A stretch of 37,897 nucleotides of DNA from Bacteroidales bacterium. Its GTDB lineage: Bacteria; Bacteroidota; Bacteroidia; Bacteroidales; UBA932. Shown here in pieces: positions 22,245 through 31,596 of this stretch. The DNA lies in NCBI GenBank assembly GCA_030695165.1, contig JAUYTH010000096.1, forward strand, positions 1-37,897, read 5' to 3'. The notes beneath the pieces are model-generated. The model saw only the letters and a program-made list of their open reading frames with translations. It ran no database searches and was not told the origin of the DNA. The stretch's first letter is position 1. Each line of letters starts with the position of its first letter. The translations under genes and the position numbers were made by a program.

Positions 22245-22537
22245 TTCTGCTCAACGTATCGCAAAGCTAATGATATTTTATTTAAGCTCTTTTAGAAACC
22301 TCATCTCTGTTAAAGAGAGCGGCCGGTTTTTACCTTCGAAAAGAGGAGATTGTAACTGCTATTTTTTACGCTGTAGAGTTATTAAAAGCAGAATATGACT
22401 CTAAAACGAGGGGTGACTACCTATACATAAACTCTACAAAAACGTGCATAAATAAATATTTATCTCTACAAACAATAAAACAGCTATATTTAAATAATTA
22501 AAATATAACGGAATAATAATAATCAATACCTCTACAA

Positions 22538-22570: not shown

Positions 22571-22634
22571 GATATGAATTATGGGATTGAATATATTGTA
22601 ACTTGCGTGGGGTATTACTAAAAAAATTGAGAGT

Positions 22635-23282
22635 ATGTTACTTTTTGCAAAAGCGAACAAATCTATTGAACTGATTGATCAATTTCTTAATTGTGTAGAT
22701 CAAAGTCTACTGCTTTTTAAAGAGGGTGTAAAAAACTACCTCTACGCCAGCACAGAAAATTTTAACTCAAACCTTCAGTCTCTGGCAAATTCAGAGCTGG
22801 AGTCAGATAAATTGAGAAGAAAAATTGAGAGTACTCTTTTCTCTCAATCACTAATGCCCGAACTGAGAGGAGATTTTATGAGATTGCTCGAGGAGCTTGA
22901 CAATATTATTGACCAGGCAAAAAAGAATCTTTTTCAGTTTGATGTAGAGCAGCCGCACATCCCTGCAGAGCTTATTCCGGACTTCATTCGGCTTCTGCAA
23001 ATATCGGTCTCTGCAGCTGAGTCAGTAATACCGGCAGCGAAGAGCTACTTTACAGATCCTGTAAATGTGAATGAGAAAATCCACAGAGTCTACTTTTACG
23101 AAAAAGAGGCAGACCTGTTGGCAGATATTATTCGCAGACGAATTTTCCGCGAAATGCCGGAACTTAAGCTGAGTGAAAAATTTCATCTCCGCTACTTCAC
23201 ACTGCATATAGAGATGATTTCTGATACTGCAGAAAAGGTTGCCGACCTGCTCTCAATAATGGCAATTAAAAGAGTAGTATAA
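22635..23282 (+). CDS. DUF47 / TIGR00153 family (PhoU-like) putative phosphate transport accessory protein
   Basis: 215 aa all-helical PhoU-like sequence (FHLRYFTLHIEMISDTAEKVADLLSIMAIKR), immediately upstream of a PiT transporter, the classic DUF47-PiT pairing. Confidence 0.88.
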   Translation: MLLFAKANKSIELIDQFLNCVDQSLLLFKEGVKNYLYASTENFNSNLQSLANSELESDKLRRKIESTLFSQSLMPELRGDFMRLLEELDNIIDQAKKNLFQFDVEQPHIPAELIPDFIRLLQISVSAAESVIPAAKSYFTDPVNVNEKIHRVYFYEKEADLLADIIRRRIFREMPELKLSEKFHLRYFTLHIEMISDTAEKVADLLSIMAIKRVV

Positions 23283-23285
23283 ATT

Positions 23286-25034
23286 ATGCTGATACTCGTC
23301 TTTATATCGAGCGGTCTGTTTTTGGGGTGGTCCCTTGGTGCCAATGATGCTGCCAATATTTTTGGAACAGCAGTCGGTTCAAAGATGATCAAATTCTCGA
23401 AAGCAGCTTTGATAGCCGGAATTTTTGTAATACTTGGTGCTGTTTTGCAGGGTACGGGAACCACCAACACACTATCGGAGCTGGGTTCCGTAGATGCTGT
23501 TGGCGGAGCCTTTACCGTAGCGTTGTGTTCGGGGCTGATTGTTGCAATAATGACACGGTTTAAGTTGCCTGTCTCTACAGGTCAGGCAATAGTTGGGGCA
23601 ATTATGGGGTGGTGCTATTTTACGGCCAACCCGGTTGACTATAGCGTGCTCTCAGTTATTGTGGGCAGCTGGATAAGTGGTCCTATTCTCGGAGCCATAT
23701 TTTCTGCACTTCTTTATATGCTTTTAAGGAGATATATTAGAAGAAGTCACATTCATCTCCTTAAACTGGACTCAGTTATCCGTAACGGACTTATTATTGC
23801 GGGAGCATTTGGAGCATATAGCCTTGGTGCAAATAATATTGCCAATGTTATGGGGGTGTTTGTAAAGACAATCTCCTTTGAAATAAACATTGGAGGGTTT
23901 TCGTTAGACTCAATTACTGTTCTATTCCTTTTAGGAGGAATCTCCATTGCAATCGGGATTCTAACCTACAGTAAAAAGGTAATGGAGACCATTGGTACCG
24001 GAATACTGGCAATGACTCCGGAGAGTGCAATAGTTGTGGTACTGGCACAGGCACTGGTACTGTTTATCTTCTCGTCAACTACTTTGTCAAATCTTTTTGT
24101 GAGTATAGGGTTGCCGGCCATACCTATGGTACCGGTATCCAGCACCCAGGTGGTTGTAGGTTCTGTTTTGGGAATAGGTTTAGTTAAAGGTGTACAGGAG
24201 ATTAAGCTCAAGATGATTAGAAATATTATTGCAGGGTGGATATTAACTCCTATTCTCTCCGGGATCACTACATTCTTCAGCCTCTTCTTTATTCAGAGTG
24301 TATTTGGAATATCTGTGACCAAGAAAAACATTACGGGAAGCGTGCTTGAACCGGGACCTGTGAAATCATCTGCAATAAATATTCCTTTGGAGATGGTTAA
24401 TATTCTTATCATAGTTCTTCTCTTTCTACTGCTCATCACTATAGTTATTCTTTTTTACAGATATCAGAGGAACAGACAAAAACTTAAGGATAATGAGAAG
24501 CGGTGGACAGAGCTTGTAAACTATACCGATATAAGAAAGTCCTTAAGTGATATGGAGGTGAGCACTATTCAACTGGAGAACGACTCTTTGGTAACCAGGC
24601 TGGAAGAGAGGAAAAGAGAGCTTATAACCTACTCTTTGAGCATTGGAGAGCAGAGGCAACTCCTTAGCTCAATCTCCAGAACACTGGAATCTGCGATAAA
24701 TACTCAAGACCCAAAAGAGAAAAATGATCAGCTTATGGCAGAGATACGCAGGATAAAACAAAAGATGAGTTTTACAAACGAGGTAGAGCGAATCTACACT
24801 CAGGCAGAGCACGTCTATGCAGACTTCTCTAACAGACTTGTTCAAAAATTTCCAAATCTCACAGTTCAGGACAGAAGGCTTATGATGTTGCTCAGAATTG
24901 GATTTTCTTCGAAAGAGATAGCCCCGATTTTAAACATATCTGTAAAGAGTGTAGAGATCAGCAGGCATAGGCTTAGAAAAAAATTAAATCTTTCTCAGGA
25001 TGAAAATCTTGTAGAGTTTGTCAAGACAGCTTAG
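23286..25034 (+). CDS. PiT family inorganic phosphate transporter fused to a coiled coil and a C-terminal LuxR-type HTH domain
   Basis: Two PiT signature halves (GWSLGANDAANIFGTAVGS...; YSLGANNIANVMGV...PVSSTQVVVGSVLGIGLVKG), last TM ILIIVLLFLLLITIVILFY, coiled-coil linker, then LTVQDRRLMMLLRIGFSSKEIAPILNISVKSVEISRHRLRKKLNL (GerE/LuxR-like HTH, from about nt 24858), in one uninterrupted 582 aa ORF. Confidence 0.92.
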   Translation: MLILVFISSGLFLGWSLGANDAANIFGTAVGSKMIKFSKAALIAGIFVILGAVLQGTGTTNTLSELGSVDAVGGAFTVALCSGLIVAIMTRFKLPVSTGQAIVGAIMGWCYFTANPVDYSVLSVIVGSWISGPILGAIFSALLYMLLRRYIRRSHIHLLKLDSVIRNGLIIAGAFGAYSLGANNIANVMGVFVKTISFEINIGGFSLDSITVLFLLGGISIAIGILTYSKKVMETIGTGILAMTPESAIVVVLAQALVLFIFSSTTLSNLFVSIGLPAIPMVPVSSTQVVVGSVLGIGLVKGVQEIKLKMIRNIIAGWILTPILSGITTFFSLFFIQSVFGISVTKKNITGSVLEPGPVKSSAINIPLEMVNILIIVLLFLLLITIVILFYRYQRNRQKLKDNEKRWTELVNYTDIRKSLSDMEVSTIQLENDSLVTRLEERKRELITYSLSIGEQRQLLSSISRTLESAINTQDPKEKNDQLMAEIRRIKQKMSFTNEVERIYTQAEHVYADFSNRLVQKFPNLTVQDRRLMMLLRIGFSSKEIAPILNISVKSVEISRHRLRKKLNLSQDENLVEFVKTA

Positions 25035-25101: not shown

Positions 25102-26466
25102 ATGAAAAAATCATTATTAACACTAACTCTGCTGCTTCTCTTTGGAGTAGCAAATGCACAAGAACCACCTCAAAAAGATGTTCGCTATGACCAGTATGGT
25201 AAACTCATTAAAGAGAGGAAACCTCTCTCGGCAGAGGCCCGTAACGGCATTCTTGTATTTGAATCACAGGAGCAGGACTATAAGCTCTGGCTTGATGTAC
25301 GGATCCAGGCAGATGCGCAGATGTTCTCGAAAAATGCACTTAATGAAATTGGTGATGGAGCCAAGATTAGAAGGGCCAGGTTTGCAGTTAAGGCTATCAT
25401 TAACAAACACCTTTACGGAGAGTTGGATATTAATGTTGCCAACGGTATTCTGGAGCTTAATGATGCCTATCTCCAGTATGATTTTCTTAACGGGCTTTCC
25501 AGCAGAGTCGGTAACTTTAAAGAGCCATTCTCAATGACTCAGACTACAACTTCTCGATACATTAAGTTTATGGAGCGTTCTCTGGAGGTTGGGACTTTTG
25601 CACCATCCAGACATATCGGATGGGAGACATCATACTCAGGAAAGAAGTTTCTTGCAGTTGGAGGTATCTTCTTTCAGGAGATAGAGGATGCAGAGAAGGC
25701 TATCTATACAGAGGATAACAACAAAGATTTTGGCCGTGATGAGGGCTACTCATTAACAGGGAAATTTGTTTATCAACCCTTTAACCACAAAACAGATTAT
25801 GGGGTTCACCTTGGCTTTGCATACTCATACAGAACACCAAAAACCAGCTTTGCTCCTGGTGAGTGGGGAATGGCAAGATACAGTGCTCGTTCGTTGAGTA
25901 ATATCAACAGAAAGAAGTATTTGGATACGGACTTGATTCCAAATATGCACCACGAGAGTCTTACAAATTTTGAGCTGGCTATGTTCTATAAAGGGCTCTC
26001 TTTGCAGAGTGAAATTATGAATAACAATCTCATCAGAAAGAACAACCTTGAGACTCTCAATTTTGGCGGATTCCATATTGAGGGAGGTTATATGCTATTT
26101 GGAGGTAGACAGGTCTACAATAAGGGTGAAGGGGAGTTCACTCAGCCGGATCTTGGTCGTAAATGGGGAGATGTTGAGCTTGTATTTCGTTACGATTACG
26201 TTAACCTGAACGACAAAGATGTATATGGAGGTTCGGCAGAGGGAGTTACAGCAGGACTTAACATCTATACAGGATATAACTTCAAATTCCAGATTAACTA
26301 CAGCTATGTTAACCACGACAGATATGCAAGCGGAAAGAAGAAACTGTATGTTGGTAAAGATGTAGAGGGTAACCTTACAAAGGACCCTACCAAGGTTGCC
26401 ACTGCAGCAGGTAATGCAGGCGACGATTACGGAATGTTGGGTGTGAGATTTCAGATAGCATTTTAA
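25102..26466 (+). CDS. Porin O/P (OprO/OprP-like phosphate-selective porin)
   Basis: 454 aa with signal peptide; KIRRARFAVKAIINKHLYGELDINVANGILELNDAYLQYDFLNGLSSRVGNFKEPFSMTQTTTSRYIKFMERSL is typical of the porin O/P family. Ends MLGVRFQIAF. Confidence 0.9.
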   Translation: MKKSLLTLTLLLLFGVANAQEPPQKDVRYDQYGKLIKERKPLSAEARNGILVFESQEQDYKLWLDVRIQADAQMFSKNALNEIGDGAKIRRARFAVKAIINKHLYGELDINVANGILELNDAYLQYDFLNGLSSRVGNFKEPFSMTQTTTSRYIKFMERSLEVGTFAPSRHIGWETSYSGKKFLAVGGIFFQEIEDAEKAIYTEDNNKDFGRDEGYSLTGKFVYQPFNHKTDYGVHLGFAYSYRTPKTSFAPGEWGMARYSARSLSNINRKKYLDTDLIPNMHHESLTNFELAMFYKGLSLQSEIMNNNLIRKNNLETLNFGGFHIEGGYMLFGGRQVYNKGEGEFTQPDLGRKWGDVELVFRYDYVNLNDKDVYGGSAEGVTAGLNIYTGYNFKFQINYSYVNHDRYASGKKKLYVGKDVEGNLTKDPTKVATAAGNAGDDYGMLGVRFQIAF

Positions 26467-26485: not shown

Positions 26486-27310
26486 ATGAAAAATAGATTA
26501 GTAATAATATTTCCTCTGGTAGTTCTGCTTATAATAGCATCATGTGTTAAAGACCTGGTTTTTGAAGGACCGGCCACTATATCGAATGTTGCAGGAAGCC
26601 CTGCTGCTCCAAAATCTACAGAGAGCGTTACAGTTACTGCAAAAGTTACAGACCTTAAAGGGGTAACATCTGTAAATCTTATGTATAAGATCTCAACAGC
26701 ATCAACATTTACATCGGTGGCAATGACTGCCGGAGCAAACTTTGTATATACCGGAACAATTCCTGTACATCCTTTGAATACCGCTGTTCAATACTATGTT
26801 GAGGTAACAAATCAGGATGGTCTTAAATCAAAATACCCGGCTACAGCACCCACCGCATTAGCTACCTATACCGTTGGAGCATCTACTGTTATAAGTCTTT
26901 TTATTAATGAGGTTTTTGCAGATGGAACTAAAGATGCAACAGACCCCGACTGGTTTGAAATCTACAATAACTCTGAGATACCCGTTAACCTTACAGGCTA
27001 TCTGGTTTCTGACGGAGGTATCTACGGAACGACAAAACCAAAAAGGGTACTGGGAAATCTTACTATAGCAGCAAAAGGGTTCCTTGTTATCTCAACCGAG
27101 TATAATGAAGAGACTGTTCAGTTTGGATTGAGTACCAGCGGAGACGCAATATATCTGGAGAACCCTTCCGGTGTGCTTGCAGCATCTCTCGATTTTGGCA
27201 CTATCGCTCTTGCCGGAAAGAAATCATACGGTCGTAAACCGGATGGTTCATCTACACTATTAATATTTAATAACCCAACAAAAGGGAGCTCTAACAACAA
27301 CGCAAATTAG
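26486..27310 (+). CDS. Lipoprotein with lamin-tail (LTD) domain
   Basis: LLIIASC lipobox; LFINEVFADGTKDATDPDWFEIYNNSEIPVNLTGYLVSDGG...GFLVISTEY is an LTD fold pattern. Confidence 0.8.
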   Translation: MKNRLVIIFPLVVLLIIASCVKDLVFEGPATISNVAGSPAAPKSTESVTVTAKVTDLKGVTSVNLMYKISTASTFTSVAMTAGANFVYTGTIPVHPLNTAVQYYVEVTNQDGLKSKYPATAPTALATYTVGASTVISLFINEVFADGTKDATDPDWFEIYNNSEIPVNLTGYLVSDGGIYGTTKPKRVLGNLTIAAKGFLVISTEYNEETVQFGLSTSGDAIYLENPSGVLAASLDFGTIALAGKKSYGRKPDGSSTLLIFNNPTKGSSNNNAN

Positions 27311-27336: not shown

Positions 27337-27981
27337 ATGAGTAAAGAAGAGTTGAAAATAGGAGAGATATCAAAACCAAGATTCGAGTACAGAACATTCG
27401 GACAGAATTTTGACAGTGCCTTTATGAGAATGGCACGGCTGAGTGTTCCCGTACCGGAGAAGGTTTGGGAGAGGACCAGTGAAGAGATATACATCGTTTC
27501 ACGAACAAATGATATAAATAATACTAAAATTCGTGATGGTAAGATGGATATCAAAACGTTTGTCCAGACAGTAGATGGGCTGGAGCAGTGGAATCCTCTT
27601 ATGAAAGGAGAGTTCCCCATCTCTGCAGATGTTCTTAAAAAAGAGGTTTTCCCGGCTTTCCAGGTTAAGATGGATGAGCTTAAAAAGGATACTTACACCT
27701 ACGATGAGTTTATGGAGATTATCAATAATCATCCCGATCTTCAGGCCGTGAGAGTATACAAACAGCGTTTCGGTTATATGGTAAACAATACCATTTGTGA
27801 GACAGGAGTTGTCCTTATTAACGGAGCAAAGCTTGTGACAATTAACTCTGAATCTACAGAGGTAGAGGATATACTTAAAACTGTTAAAGATGTCGGGCTT
27901 GAGGGTGTAGAAAACATCAACTACCTGCAGGCTATCAAACGGGTAATAGGAATGATTAATAAACCTTTAGCAAACGAATAG
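27337..27981 (+). CDS. Uncharacterised protein; possible divergent CYTH-like (triphosphate tunnel) fold
   Basis: 214 aa ORF in the operon. Pattern EEIYIVSRTND...NTKIRDGKMDIKTF...VRVYKQRFGYMVNNTICETGVVLINGAKLVTINSESTEVEDILKTVKDVGL loosely resembles CYTH strand order. Gene call strong, fold assignment weak. Confidence 0.6.
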   Translation: MSKEELKIGEISKPRFEYRTFGQNFDSAFMRMARLSVPVPEKVWERTSEEIYIVSRTNDINNTKIRDGKMDIKTFVQTVDGLEQWNPLMKGEFPISADVLKKEVFPAFQVKMDELKKDTYTYDEFMEIINNHPDLQAVRVYKQRFGYMVNNTICETGVVLINGAKLVTINSESTEVEDILKTVKDVGLEGVENINYLQAIKRVIGMINKPLANE

Positions 27982-27982
27982 T

Positions 27983-28453
27983 ATGGCACAGGAGATAGAG
28001 AGAAAATTTCTGGTGAAATCTGATGATTTCAAAAAGGTTGCCTCTAAGGAGACTCGAATCACACAGGGCTATCTCTCATCTGTACCTGAGCGTACGGTGA
28101 GGGTGCGCATAAAGGGGAAATCGGGCTATCTTACCATAAAAGGTATCGGTAATGAGAGCGGAGCTTCCCGTTATGAGTGGGAGAGAGAGATTCCTGTTGC
28201 AGAGGTAGAGGAGTTACTCAAAATATGTGAGCCGGGTGTTATTGATAAAACACGCTACGAGGTAAAATCCGGGATTCACACTTTTGAGGTAGATGAGTTC
28301 TACGGCGAAAACAGTGGATTGATTGTGGCAGAGGTAGAGCTAAAATCCGAAGATCAGGCATTCACCAAGCCAGATTGGATAGCAGAAGAGGTAACAGGGG
28401 ACTCTAAGTATTACAACTCAATGCTTATGAAGAACCCCTATACCAAATGGTGA
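27983..28453 (+). CDS. CYTH domain protein (triphosphate tunnel metalloenzyme, probable inorganic triphosphatase)
   Basis: N-terminal EIERKFLV motif, RVRIKGKSGYLTIKG, YEWEREIP, TFEVDEFYGENSGLIVAEVELKSEDQAF. Confidence 0.92.
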   Translation: MAQEIERKFLVKSDDFKKVASKETRITQGYLSSVPERTVRVRIKGKSGYLTIKGIGNESGASRYEWEREIPVAEVEELLKICEPGVIDKTRYEVKSGIHTFEVDEFYGENSGLIVAEVELKSEDQAFTKPDWIAEEVTGDSKYYNSMLMKNPYTKW

Positions 28454-28529: not shown

Positions 28530-30128
28530 ATGAGCACTATAGAGAGTACGCACGACATACTCGATATGAATAACTATCGTGTCGAGAAGTTGAAAAAAGC
28601 ACAAAAAACAGGGTTTGAGAAGTGGATGGAGATAGTTGGAGGGCCTCTGGCTGTTATCGTTTTTCTTGGGATTTACTACTTTATGGATATCTCATTTTTA
28701 AACGACATAGACCCGGGCCTGCTGGGGAAAGAGTCTCTAAAACGGTTTAACGATTTAGGGACACAGAATTTCTCCCGAATAAACTATGCTATGCTGGCAA
28801 TTTTTGCGGCTTCAATTGTTTTATGGATTACAGAGGCGATTCCAAACTACCTCACATCTCTTCTGGTAATAATTACAATGGTCCTCACCGGAGTAACATC
28901 GGAAAAACTGGCATATGCTCAGCTTGGACACCCGGTAATGTGGCTTAACATACTCTCTTTTGTTCTGGCAAGTATGCTGGTTAAAACAAGAGTTGCCAAG
29001 AGGTTTGCATTATGGTTTGTAATTCGGTTCGGGAAAAATGCCACCTGGATATTTTTCAGTTTTATTGTAATAAACGTAGTACTCTCAATATTCATCTCGG
29101 CAACAACTGCAAAGGCCACAATTCTTCTCCCGATATTTATGGTTATTGCTGCAATTTACGGGGCATCTCCCGATAAAAGGAACAATTTCGGAAGGAATAT
29201 AGTGCTTCAGAATCTATTCCAGATCAATATGGGTGCCAGCGGGTTCATAACAGGATCGGGAGCAAACCTACTTGCAGGTTCACTCATTGCGGGCTCTATG
29301 GGGATGTCTATGTTTGGATTCCAGGATTGGTTCTTTGCCGCTTTCCCATTATGTATGATATTAATATTGATTGGATGGGTTGTGGGGACCAAAATAATTT
29401 TTCCTATGAAACCCGGCGAGAGGGTTCCTCAGATTGAGGGTGGGATGGAGCGACTCAAAGAGGAGTACCATCTGCTAGGGAAGATGAAATTTGACGAGTT
29501 TAAAGCTATTGCGATTTTTGTTGTAGTTCTCTTACTTTGGGCTACTGATAAACAACACGGAATATCACAGACAGCAGTCGCATTTATGGGGGCCGTAGTA
29601 GCTCTGCTACCCGGCATAGGGATAGTAAAATGGAATGATGTAGATATTCCCTGGCACCTTATGCTATTCTCTGCAGGAGCATACACTTTAGGTTCCGGAC
29701 TAGAGGTTACAGACCTTCCTGCAATAATGGTTGACTCTCTCTTTAGCCATTTTGGAATTTCTGAGCAGACTCCGTTCTGGGTTCTCTACTTAAGCCTGAC
29801 ATTTGTTATGATATTCAGCGGGATGCTTTTCCAGTCAAAAACGATGAGAGCTCTCATTTTTGTGCCAATTGCAATTGGTATCTCACAAAAATTCGGGTAC
29901 CCCATAATGAGTTTATCATTCCCTATAGCACTTCTTATAGAACACGTATATGTGTTGCCTTTCAACAGCAAACCAGCGGCATTGCTCTACACTACAAATC
30001 AATACAGTATAACCGACACATTTAAATTCGGCTTCACAATGCTGGTTATTAGCTGGGTTATGATAATTATATGGGGAGAGACACTTCTTCACTGGTTAGG
30101 TTATACGCCAAACGGAGTATTCTTTTAA
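28530..30128 (+). CDS. SLC13/DASS family anion transporter
   Basis: 532 aa multi-TM; LWITEAIPNYLTSLLVIITMVLTGV, ATTAKATILLPIFMVIAA, ITGSGANLLAGSLI and symmetric C-terminal half. Confidence 0.88.
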   Translation: MSTIESTHDILDMNNYRVEKLKKAQKTGFEKWMEIVGGPLAVIVFLGIYYFMDISFLNDIDPGLLGKESLKRFNDLGTQNFSRINYAMLAIFAASIVLWITEAIPNYLTSLLVIITMVLTGVTSEKLAYAQLGHPVMWLNILSFVLASMLVKTRVAKRFALWFVIRFGKNATWIFFSFIVINVVLSIFISATTAKATILLPIFMVIAAIYGASPDKRNNFGRNIVLQNLFQINMGASGFITGSGANLLAGSLIAGSMGMSMFGFQDWFFAAFPLCMILILIGWVVGTKIIFPMKPGERVPQIEGGMERLKEEYHLLGKMKFDEFKAIAIFVVVLLLWATDKQHGISQTAVAFMGAVVALLPGIGIVKWNDVDIPWHLMLFSAGAYTLGSGLEVTDLPAIMVDSLFSHFGISEQTPFWVLYLSLTFVMIFSGMLFQSKTMRALIFVPIAIGISQKFGYPIMSLSFPIALLIEHVYVLPFNSKPAALLYTTNQYSITDTFKFGFTMLVISWVMIIIWGETLLHWLGYTPNGVFF

Positions 30129-30138
30129 ACTACAAAAA

Positions 30139-31596
30139 ATGATAGACGAACAGGTTAAACTGCACGACAGATTTTCGGCAGAGATAAAGGTGAGTTTTGG
30201 AGCAAGAAAGAAGCTGAAATTGAATGATTTTGCGTTTAATATATGGCTTTTTGTTCCGAACAGCCTGGATATAAACAGGTTTAATTACTCGAAACAGGAT
30301 TTTTACAGAGACTTAAGGTCAAATATCCGGCTCATTACCCCCGTATATCTTTTACGGAATATAGTTTGGGCAGAAAATTCCCCCTTTATATACCTGGAGA
30401 AAGCATTCAGGAAGATCACCTCACAACCAACCAGAACGAACTCAGAAGAGTATGAGTATCAGATAAAGATGTTTCTTTCAATACTTAAAAGCTCTCTCAG
30501 AGATGAGGTAAATCATATGAACTCAGCAAAAGCTGACGATCTTAACTACCTCGTAAGCAATTACACTAAAAACGTAAAGAGCATCTTTGAAAAATACAGA
30601 GATCTCTACCCAATAATCAATGTTCCCAATATTGAGCCGGGACTTATAGACTACTACCGTTACGGAGAGGAGTTTATGTGTAATGTAATTGAGAAGTACA
30701 GCTTCCTGCTGATGAAGGGGATTAAAGGTGCAGATAAAGAGCTTTTTGAAAGTTACAAAACAGCCATTCTCTCTATGGTAAATGAGATTATCGAGTTCAA
30801 AAAGAGCAGGGGATACCAGGTGGTGGAGAGTGAACAGAAGAACATCTCCAGTGACTTTGTTCATCGTCTTGGATTGCTTAAAAAGTATGCAGAGAGCCAT
30901 CTCTACCTAAATGTAAAAAAGCGAAGGGACGGAGTCCTCACAGAGCAGTTCCTCTATAGTATAGCTGCAGGAATATCAATGATCTTTGCAACAATAATAG
31001 CCTTTTCGGTACAGCAGCAGTTCGGAAGTTTCACTATGCCTCTGTTTGTTGCACTTGTAGTGAGCTATATGTTAAAAGACAGAATTAAAGAGTTGGCAAG
31101 ATACTATTTTGCACATAAGATGAGCTCTAAATACTTTGACCACAAAATAGCAATGAACATTAACGATACCGATATAGGGTGGGCAAAGGAGAGTATGGAC
31201 TTTATTCAGGATTCAAAGATTCCTAAGGAGATTATTAAACTAAGGAACAGAGCTGCAATTATAGACGCTACATATAAAACCGACAGTGAGAAGATTATTC
31301 TCTATAGGATGCATATGCATATAGACAGGGAGAAACTCAACTCGACAAGTCCCTACTTCTTTTCCGGAGTTAACTCAATCATACGCCTGAATACCTCCCA
31401 TTTTTTGAGAAATATGGATAACCCGGAGTTCACTCTTTACTTTCCGGATGACCAAGCGGGTTATCAAACCATCAAAGGAAAAAAGTTATACTACCTCAAT
31501 CTGATTATTCAAAAGCAGAACGAAACCCAGAATGAGTTTCGCCACTACCGTCTGGTACTAAACCGAGACGGAATTATCCGAATAGAAGAGGAATAA
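30139..31596 (+). CDS. Uncharacterised 485 aa protein with two central TM helices
   Basis: Complete ORF 10 nt after the SLC13 stop. TM pair FLYSIAAGISMIFATIIAFSVQQQFGSFTMPLFVALVVSYML; no family recognised. Confidence 0.85.
   Translation: MIDEQVKLHDRFSAEIKVSFGARKKLKLNDFAFNIWLFVPNSLDINRFNYSKQDFYRDLRSNIRLITPVYLLRNIVWAENSPFIYLEKAFRKITSQPTRTNSEEYEYQIKMFLSILKSSLRDEVNHMNSAKADDLNYLVSNYTKNVKSIFEKYRDLYPIINVPNIEPGLIDYYRYGEEFMCNVIEKYSFLLMKGIKGADKELFESYKTAILSMVNEIIEFKKSRGYQVVESEQKNISSDFVHRLGLLKKYAESHLYLNVKKRRDGVLTEQFLYSIAAGISMIFATIIAFSVQQQFGSFTMPLFVALVVSYMLKDRIKELARYYFAHKMSSKYFDHKIAMNINDTDIGWAKESMDFIQDSKIPKEIIKLRNRAAIIDATYKTDSEKIILYRMHMHIDREKLNSTSPYFFSGVNSIIRLNTSHFLRNMDNPEFTLYFPDDQAGYQTIKGKKLYYLNLIIQKQNETQNEFRHYRLVLNRDGIIRIEEE

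Follow-up and report, generated by a model that had tools for sequence, protein, structure and literature searches.

Architecture of the fusion gene

The window, by which we mean the whole 37,897-nucleotide stretch of Bacteroidales DNA that was analysed, contains a gene in which a PiT transporter domain is followed by a coiled coil and a LuxR-type helix-turn-helix (HTH) domain. The gene occupies positions 23286-25034 of the forward strand as a single open frame of 582 codons plus the stop, and its translation runs through without interruption, as a preliminary description of the locus had stated. The gene and its parts are listed here.

23286-25034, + strand: PiT-coiled coil-LuxR HTH fusion gene, 582 aa (frame, Pfam, relatives)
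23286-24305, + strand: PiT transporter domain, residues 1-340, signatures intact (Pfam PF01384; top fold match 6L85, TmPiT)
24396-24470, + strand: extra last transmembrane (TM) helix, residues ~371-395, then a basic stretch (AF2 helix 369-410; position kept in relatives)
24471-24845, + strand: coiled-coil linker, residues 396-520 (AF2 long helices 413-494)
24846-25031, + strand: LuxR/GerE HTH, residues 521-582 (Pfam PF00196, 36.8 bits)

A Pfam search matched residues 18-328 to PHO4 (PF01384; 185.6 bits against a cut-off of 33.7) and residues 524-577 to GerE/LuxR (PF00196, cut-off 23.5 bits). GerE was the sole output domain, and no histidine kinase domain was found in the protein by this search. 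Both halves of the PiT signature are intact (GANDAAN at residues 18-24 and GANNIAN at residues 181-187); the two GAN(D/N)xAN signatures and the ST/Q motifs are kept in the window's protein and in the intact fusions of other genomes. Judging from these residues, the PiT domain of the window's protein probably still moves phosphate. The top NCBIfam match of the permease half was a Bacteroides sulfate permease model, which scored far under its cut-off (68.9 against 400 bits).

The AF2 model of the fusion, built from 21 sequences (pLDDT 73, pTM 0.56), comprises a PiT core, a helix at residues 369-410, long coiled-coil helices and a four-helix HTH (527-538, 542-549, 553-566 and 575-581). A Foldseek search using this model revealed the sodium-dependent phosphate transporter 6L85 as the closest PDB fold (E 7e-13, prob 1.00). 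The coordinates and the domain order of the preliminary description, with two PiT halves, a coiled coil and a C-terminal HTH, are correct. PiT cores terminate outside the cytoplasm, and a cytoplasmic coiled coil and HTH therefore need one more TM helix, here together with the basic stretch YRYQRNRQKLK. The final TM helix, previously placed at about nt 24400-24470, was found at 24396-24470, and the C-terminal coiled coil and HTH are predicted to lie on the cytoplasmic side.

Gene neighbourhood

The fusion gene is accompanied by the following genes.

22635-23282, + strand: DUF47/PhoU_div (PhoU-like) protein, 215 aa, directly 5' of the PiT gene (Pfam PF01865, 76.8 bits)
25102-26466, + strand: Porin_O_P outer-membrane porin, operon member (order conserved, 30 loci)
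26486-27310, + strand: lamin-tail-domain (LTD) protein, operon member (domain search, locus comparison)
27337-27981, + strand: conserved 214-aa protein of no known family, operon member (locus comparison)
27983-28453, + strand: CYTH-domain protein, operon member (domain search, locus comparison, structure match)
28530-30128, + strand: DASS/SLC13 anion symporter, operon member (domain search, locus comparison)
30139-31596, + strand: 485-aa protein without a Pfam match, often the next gene (locus comparison)

The order DUF47 - PiT/HTH - Porin_O_P - LTD - 214 aa - CYTH - DASS - 485 aa recurs in HTH-bearing loci and spans several Bacteroidales families with some variation. The conserved operon with DUF47 first was found in 25-30 loci, and the DUF47 gene immediately precedes the PiT gene in all loci that hold both. 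The nearest solved structures of the CYTH protein are 3TYP and 2FBL (E about 1e-19). Present in the operon in 26 loci, the 214-aa protein is 81-100% identical to the window's copy in five aligned relatives; it has no Pfam or NCBIfam match, and an AF2 model from only six sequences reached a pLDDT of 39.7. A DUF47-PiT-HTH triple ORF in one genome (G984; L219/L244) was rejected because its frame runs through an N run at the junction.

Conservation of the fusion

Full-length relatives of the fusion, with 43-97% identity, were found in about 20 further Bacteroidales genomes, in every case behind a DUF47 gene and for the most part within one conserved operon. A related-locus search recovered the same full-length fusion from independent assemblies at 97, 97, 82, 74, 64, 63, 62 and 59% identity, and an order-wide scan revealed it in a further 13 genomes at 43-55% identity with residues 1-580 covered. 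Because independent assemblies carry the full-length fusion, an assembly artefact or frameshift is ruled out as its source. Mean identity of the HTH is 63% over the intact fusions; the loop at residues 341-370 is poorly conserved (23%). In a comparison of the window with the relative L034, the HTH had a pN of 0.084 and a pS of 0.81, the PiT part had comparable values (0.085 and 0.67), and the loop with the last TM helix was loose (0.30). The pN far below pS in the HTH argues that this domain is under strong purifying selection. What the preliminary description had named as fatal to its reading was not found: no join is indicated, homologues conserve the HTH, and close relatives carry the fusion.

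Several variants were seen among the relatives. In one of the 13 genomes from the order-wide scan, an in-frame TAA in L117 (G075:C20) parts the PiT domain from the remainder of the fusion, which makes this copy a possible pseudogene or sequence error. A second fusion type of 614-624 aa (L128, L129 and L139; proteins L017, L018 and L020), in which L139 is truncated by the contig end before the HTH, is laid out as PiT, a longer insert ahead of the last TM helix, a coiled coil and the HTH, and has the upstream repeat array described below. In the HTH tree, the HTHs of L128 and L129 cluster with L125, away from the main type, and this second type may be a separate fusion event. One group of HTH-less PiT proteins (L042-L054 and L057) shares the extra last TM helix, behind which a short coil runs to about residue 410; their C-termini mostly read ...EEKFWKNxK before the stop, and their genes lie in another neighbourhood without a repeat array. 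Elsewhere in the phylum, PiT proteins of ~500 aa (L090-L098) carry a conserved additional C-terminal stretch of ~150 aa.

A phased repeat array upstream of DUF47

The region upstream of the DUF47 gene contains the following candidate elements, all from sequence comparison or scanning.

22372-22379, - strand: inverted repeat copy TGTAGAGT (sequence scan)
22420-22427, + strand: candidate operator half-site CCTATACA, next copy 11 bp on (sequence scan)
22431-22438, + strand: candidate operator site ACTCTACA (sequence scan)
22463-22470, + strand: candidate operator site TCTCTACA, 32 bp past the preceding copy (sequence scan)
22529-22536, + strand: proximal candidate operator site CCTCTACA, 66 bp past the preceding copy (sequence scan)
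22599-22606, + strand: candidate Bacteroidota -7 element TAACTTGC, an imperfect TAnnTTTG that starts 70 bp after the start of the proximal site

Repeated CTCTACA first became visible when the upstream regions of close relatives were aligned. It was the top 7-mer in an unbiased scan, found in 9 of 19 loci where 0.5 would be expected (p 6e-10, uncorrected for the roughly 8,000 7-mers). The direct repeats, C[T/A]CTACA, are spaced in multiples of ~10.9 bp. Using the pattern NC[TAC][CAT]TACA, with the variants TC, AC, TA, TT and CC at the two variable places, we counted 71 direct copies in 31 loci, where Markov shuffles gave 3.6 (maximum 10); the 31 loci include L140, which is without an HTH, and L040, whose ORF is cut by a contig end. 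Spacings of 11, 22, 32, 43, 55, 66, 98 and 109 bp occur in this set, with a best period of 10.9 bp. The type-II relative without an HTH, L140, has zero copies. An inverted copy is also present at about -242 to -263 in L033, L041, L034, L036, L040, L131 and L132.

With the pattern fixed beforehand, 67 direct copies were found in 24 new loci, several of which are close relatives of one another, against 3.6 expected. At least one copy was present in 23 of these 24 loci and a phased pair in 18; L235-L237, being the same contigs as L034, L033 and L041, were left out of this hold-out set. The array is associated with the HTH. A phased pair was found in 39 of 53 HTH-bearing loci but in 0 of 32 HTH-less PiT loci (p 2e-12), and a thinned set gave 29 of 43 against 0 of 32 (p 2e-10). 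At least one copy was seen in 52 of 53 HTH-bearing loci, compared with 3 of 32 HTH-less PiT loci. No array preceded the first gene in any of 14 tail-type loci, where DUF47 is not first (L045 offered only 30 bases), and no phased pair was found at L142, a plain PiT copy in G116, which has a fused PiT as well. Because the HTH-less controls differ in operon layout, the association could partly mirror operon history instead of binding. The tandem CTCTACA-N4-CTCTACA at 22421-22438, with at most one mismatch allowed, is the single match in the whole of the window's own genome, and it is also single in G322 and in G385, where it lies at the promoters of operons with the pseudo-PiT/HTH forms described below. 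A pair pattern with a gap of 80-108 bp has four other matches in the window's own genome.

Many LuxR-type dimers favour inverted repeats, and the direct-repeat form of the array therefore counts against binding by the HTH. Nevertheless, we infer from the association that the fusion's HTH binds the candidate array. The position of the copies relative to the promoter bears on the direction of control. The -7 consensus of the Bacteroidota primary sigma factor is TAnnTTTG (PMC7366714). In a spacing scan that accepted the looser TAnnTTG, 16 of 30 loci had a candidate -7 box beginning 66-71 bp after the start of the proximal copy; the corresponding distance in one pseudo-PiT group is 35 bp, about three helical turns shorter. 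The -7 box of the window is overlapped by no array copy. Array positions upstream of the core promoter would suit an activator, and from these site positions the predicted effect of the HTH on the operon is activation.

Loss of the transporter signature in relatives

Homologues of about 527-587 aa that are without GANDxAN, VSTxQ, GANNxAN and VPVSSxQ occur in the window's taxonomic family. This pseudo-PiT form was found in at least 30 genomes, and an intact PiT signature was present in none of 30 scanned pseudo-PiT loci, which retain the operon and the array. In six such proteins compared with the window's, the PiT part is 21% identical and the HTH 60%. PHO4 is still recognised by Pfam in L130 (36.4 bits) and L131 (43.1 bits), and L126 looks intermediate, with GSKDTVN and GANNIGN. 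One carrier of the pseudo form, G226, has a separate 343-aa PiT, and the window's own genome has a second PHO4 protein of 739 aa.

Two other loci depart further from the intact form. A 418-aa ORF at L243:1296-2549 has a much shortened membrane part ahead of the coiled coil-HTH and keeps its DUF47 and porin neighbours. At L136:6219-7202 (G359), a single ORF joins DUF47 straight to the coiled coil-HTH (PF01865 41.8 bits, PF00196 28.3 bits), PiT is absent, and the same porin gene comes next. This fusion is known from one MAG contig and has a 43-base N run inside the DUF47 part, off the junction, whose length fits the expected 14 residues.

The HTH tree, in which the row L075 (plain PiT) was disregarded, groups the pseudo-PiT form, L136 and the window's clade together (98/95). 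In the PiT tree the pseudo-PiT domain has very long branches and no clear placement, and its descent was therefore taken from the HTH tree. Because the relatives lose transport residues yet keep the HTH, the operon and the repeats, transport is apparently not needed for the conserved function. The pattern points to a regulatory role as the conserved function, for which the PiT domain would serve as a sensor or an anchor, possibly with transport retained in window-like forms, and suggests that a nutrient pump was turned into a direct sensor for gene control.

Proposed function and alternatives

We consider it probable that the fusion is a transporter-derived, membrane-anchored regulator of its own phosphate operon, most likely an activator working with DUF47. 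Its PiT domain would bind phosphate and, given the signature residues, would probably still transport it in the window's form. DUF47 may read or relay the state of the membrane domain, as its strict adjacency and the one natural DUF47-HTH fusion suggest. The anatomy of the protein implies that the extra TM helix leads the C-terminus into the cytoplasm and that the coiled coil pairs the HTH domains. These would bind the C[T/A]CTACA direct-repeat array, with its ~10.9 bp phase, upstream of DUF47, which the strong association favours, and once bound would most likely activate DUF47-PiT/HTH-porin-LTD-214aa-CYTH-DASS. In the related lineage, decay of the transport site would have left a receptor-only regulator. 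We infer phosphate to be the signal and DUF47 its presumed relay.

A fuller version is a complete one-protein phosphate-to-DNA pathway, in which an active PiT reports its transport state via DUF47 and the coiled coil to array-binding HTHs, with an evolutionary series from working transporter through pseudo-transporter receptor to a transporter-free DUF47-HTH; this we hold only tentatively and somewhat doubt. The preliminary description had proposed a phosphate transceptor with transport coupled to transcription. Its fused architecture and membrane-anchored regulatory role are upheld by the conservation, the dedicated operon and the HTH-linked array. Strict coupling to transport is only one possibility, because the signature residues are intact in the window's protein but many relatives hold the HTH without such residues. 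That description did not include the DUF47 partner, the repeat array or the decay series.

The array could instead be a Bacteroidota Pho box for a PhoB-like response regulator, with the fusion's HTH acting elsewhere. The seven-base direct repeats with their 11-bp period resemble the E. coli Pho box, and every tested genome has OmpR-family regulators; the PhoB model TIGR02154 reached its cut-off in just 2 of 14 controls and is hence uninformative on whether a PhoB is present. However, phased copies were absent from the six pst loci scanned, the tandem is single in the window's own genome, and the phased pair was missing from all 32 HTH-less DUF47-PiT loci, including L142. Moreover, PstB is clearly present in G086, G200 and G322, but none was found in the window's own genome (G000, 89% complete), where the best score was 151 bits against a cut-off of 343. 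A Pho box at this position thus seems quite unlikely. The array evidence leaves the sign of control unfixed, and autoregulation by repression is common; with the same anatomy, the HTH might be a repressor at plentiful phosphate that is released at scarcity. Repression is rather unlikely given that the sites lie upstream of the core promoter at the distances given above, which is typical of activators, and that no copy overlaps the window's -7 box.

The signal itself may be different, since the regulator could serve another oxyanion (e.g., sulfate) or an intracellular phosphate status sensed by DUF47, and not PiT transport. The sulfate permease model as top NCBIfam match, albeit far under its cut-off, agrees with this, as do the dispensability of the transport residues in relatives and the ability of DUF47 to join the HTH directly in L136. 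The DUF47 and Porin_O_P neighbours, the CYTH protein and the intact PiT signatures favour phosphate, and we lean against another signal while regarding it as a serious possibility. Proteolysis might free the HTH from the membrane as a soluble regulator, and a cleavage site could lie in the linker at loop 341-370, which is long and poorly conserved; there is no obvious protease gene among the nameable recurrent operon members, and we judge such a release improbable. The existence of the HTH-less relatives L042-L054, which have the same last TM helix and a short coil, would fit a neutral or vestigial HTH appended to an otherwise ordinary permease. However, the strong purifying selection on the HTH argues against this, and the pseudo-PiT forms show the reverse, in which the permease decays and the HTH stays; this explanation is very improbable.

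Significance and comparison with known systems

If the fusion is indeed a membrane-anchored regulator of its own operon, no path from taking up a nutrient to transcribing genes could be shorter than a secondary transporter joined directly to a DNA-binding domain. Such a protein would also give genomes in which no PstB was found a means of phosphate control independent of Pst-PhoBR. The series of intact PiT, pseudo-PiT, shortened membrane domain and DUF47-HTH makes it testable whether signalling needs transport, binding or only the PhoU-like partner. DUF47, a family of unclear role, would gain a concrete place in gene control.

Large Bacteroidota coiled coil-LuxR regulators (mostly 900-1000 aa), such as those of the Y_Y_Y/beta-propeller kind, have a homologous TM-coiled coil-LuxR C-terminus with roughly 25-39% identity. 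They differ from the PiT fusion in their non-transporter input, and in the HTH tree their HTHs do not belong to the main PiT-linked group. DUF47-PiT pairs resemble the fusion locus in having adjacent genes for a PhoU-like protein and a PiT, but the HTH-less pairs examined are without the repeat array.

Among transporter-derived sensors, the ammonium sensor Ks-Amt5 consists of a transporter domain fused to a histidine kinase, in which transport is lost and binding is kept as the trigger (PMC5764959). Like the PiT fusion, it combines a nutrient transporter domain with a C-terminal signalling domain, and its lost transport corresponds to that proposed for the pseudo-PiT forms. However, its kinase output needs a response regulator, whereas the PiT fusion has an HTH as its own DNA-binding output domain and is also found in an apparently intact form. 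CbrA/CrbS likewise join a transporter domain, of the SLC5 family, to signalling through a fused histidine kinase, and the need of transport for their signalling is debated (PMC8871633). They have the SLC5 fold and a two-component output, in contrast to the SLC20/PiT fold and one-component output of the fusion. The transmembrane transcription regulators (TTRs), which carry a DNA-binding domain and TM helices in one polypeptide, are enriched in Bacteroidota, and over half are single-pass; no permease is named in the main text of the survey (PMC10269533). The PiT fusion, in which Pfam and the AF2 model place a DNA-binding domain and a TM region in the same polypeptide, falls within the TTR definition but differs in that its sensor is a whole secondary transporter. 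A search of the open literature returned no report of a PiT-LuxR fusion. The transporter-derived bacterial sensors found in the literature use kinases for output, and to these the PiT-LuxR fusion would add one with DNA binding, not a kinase, as its output.
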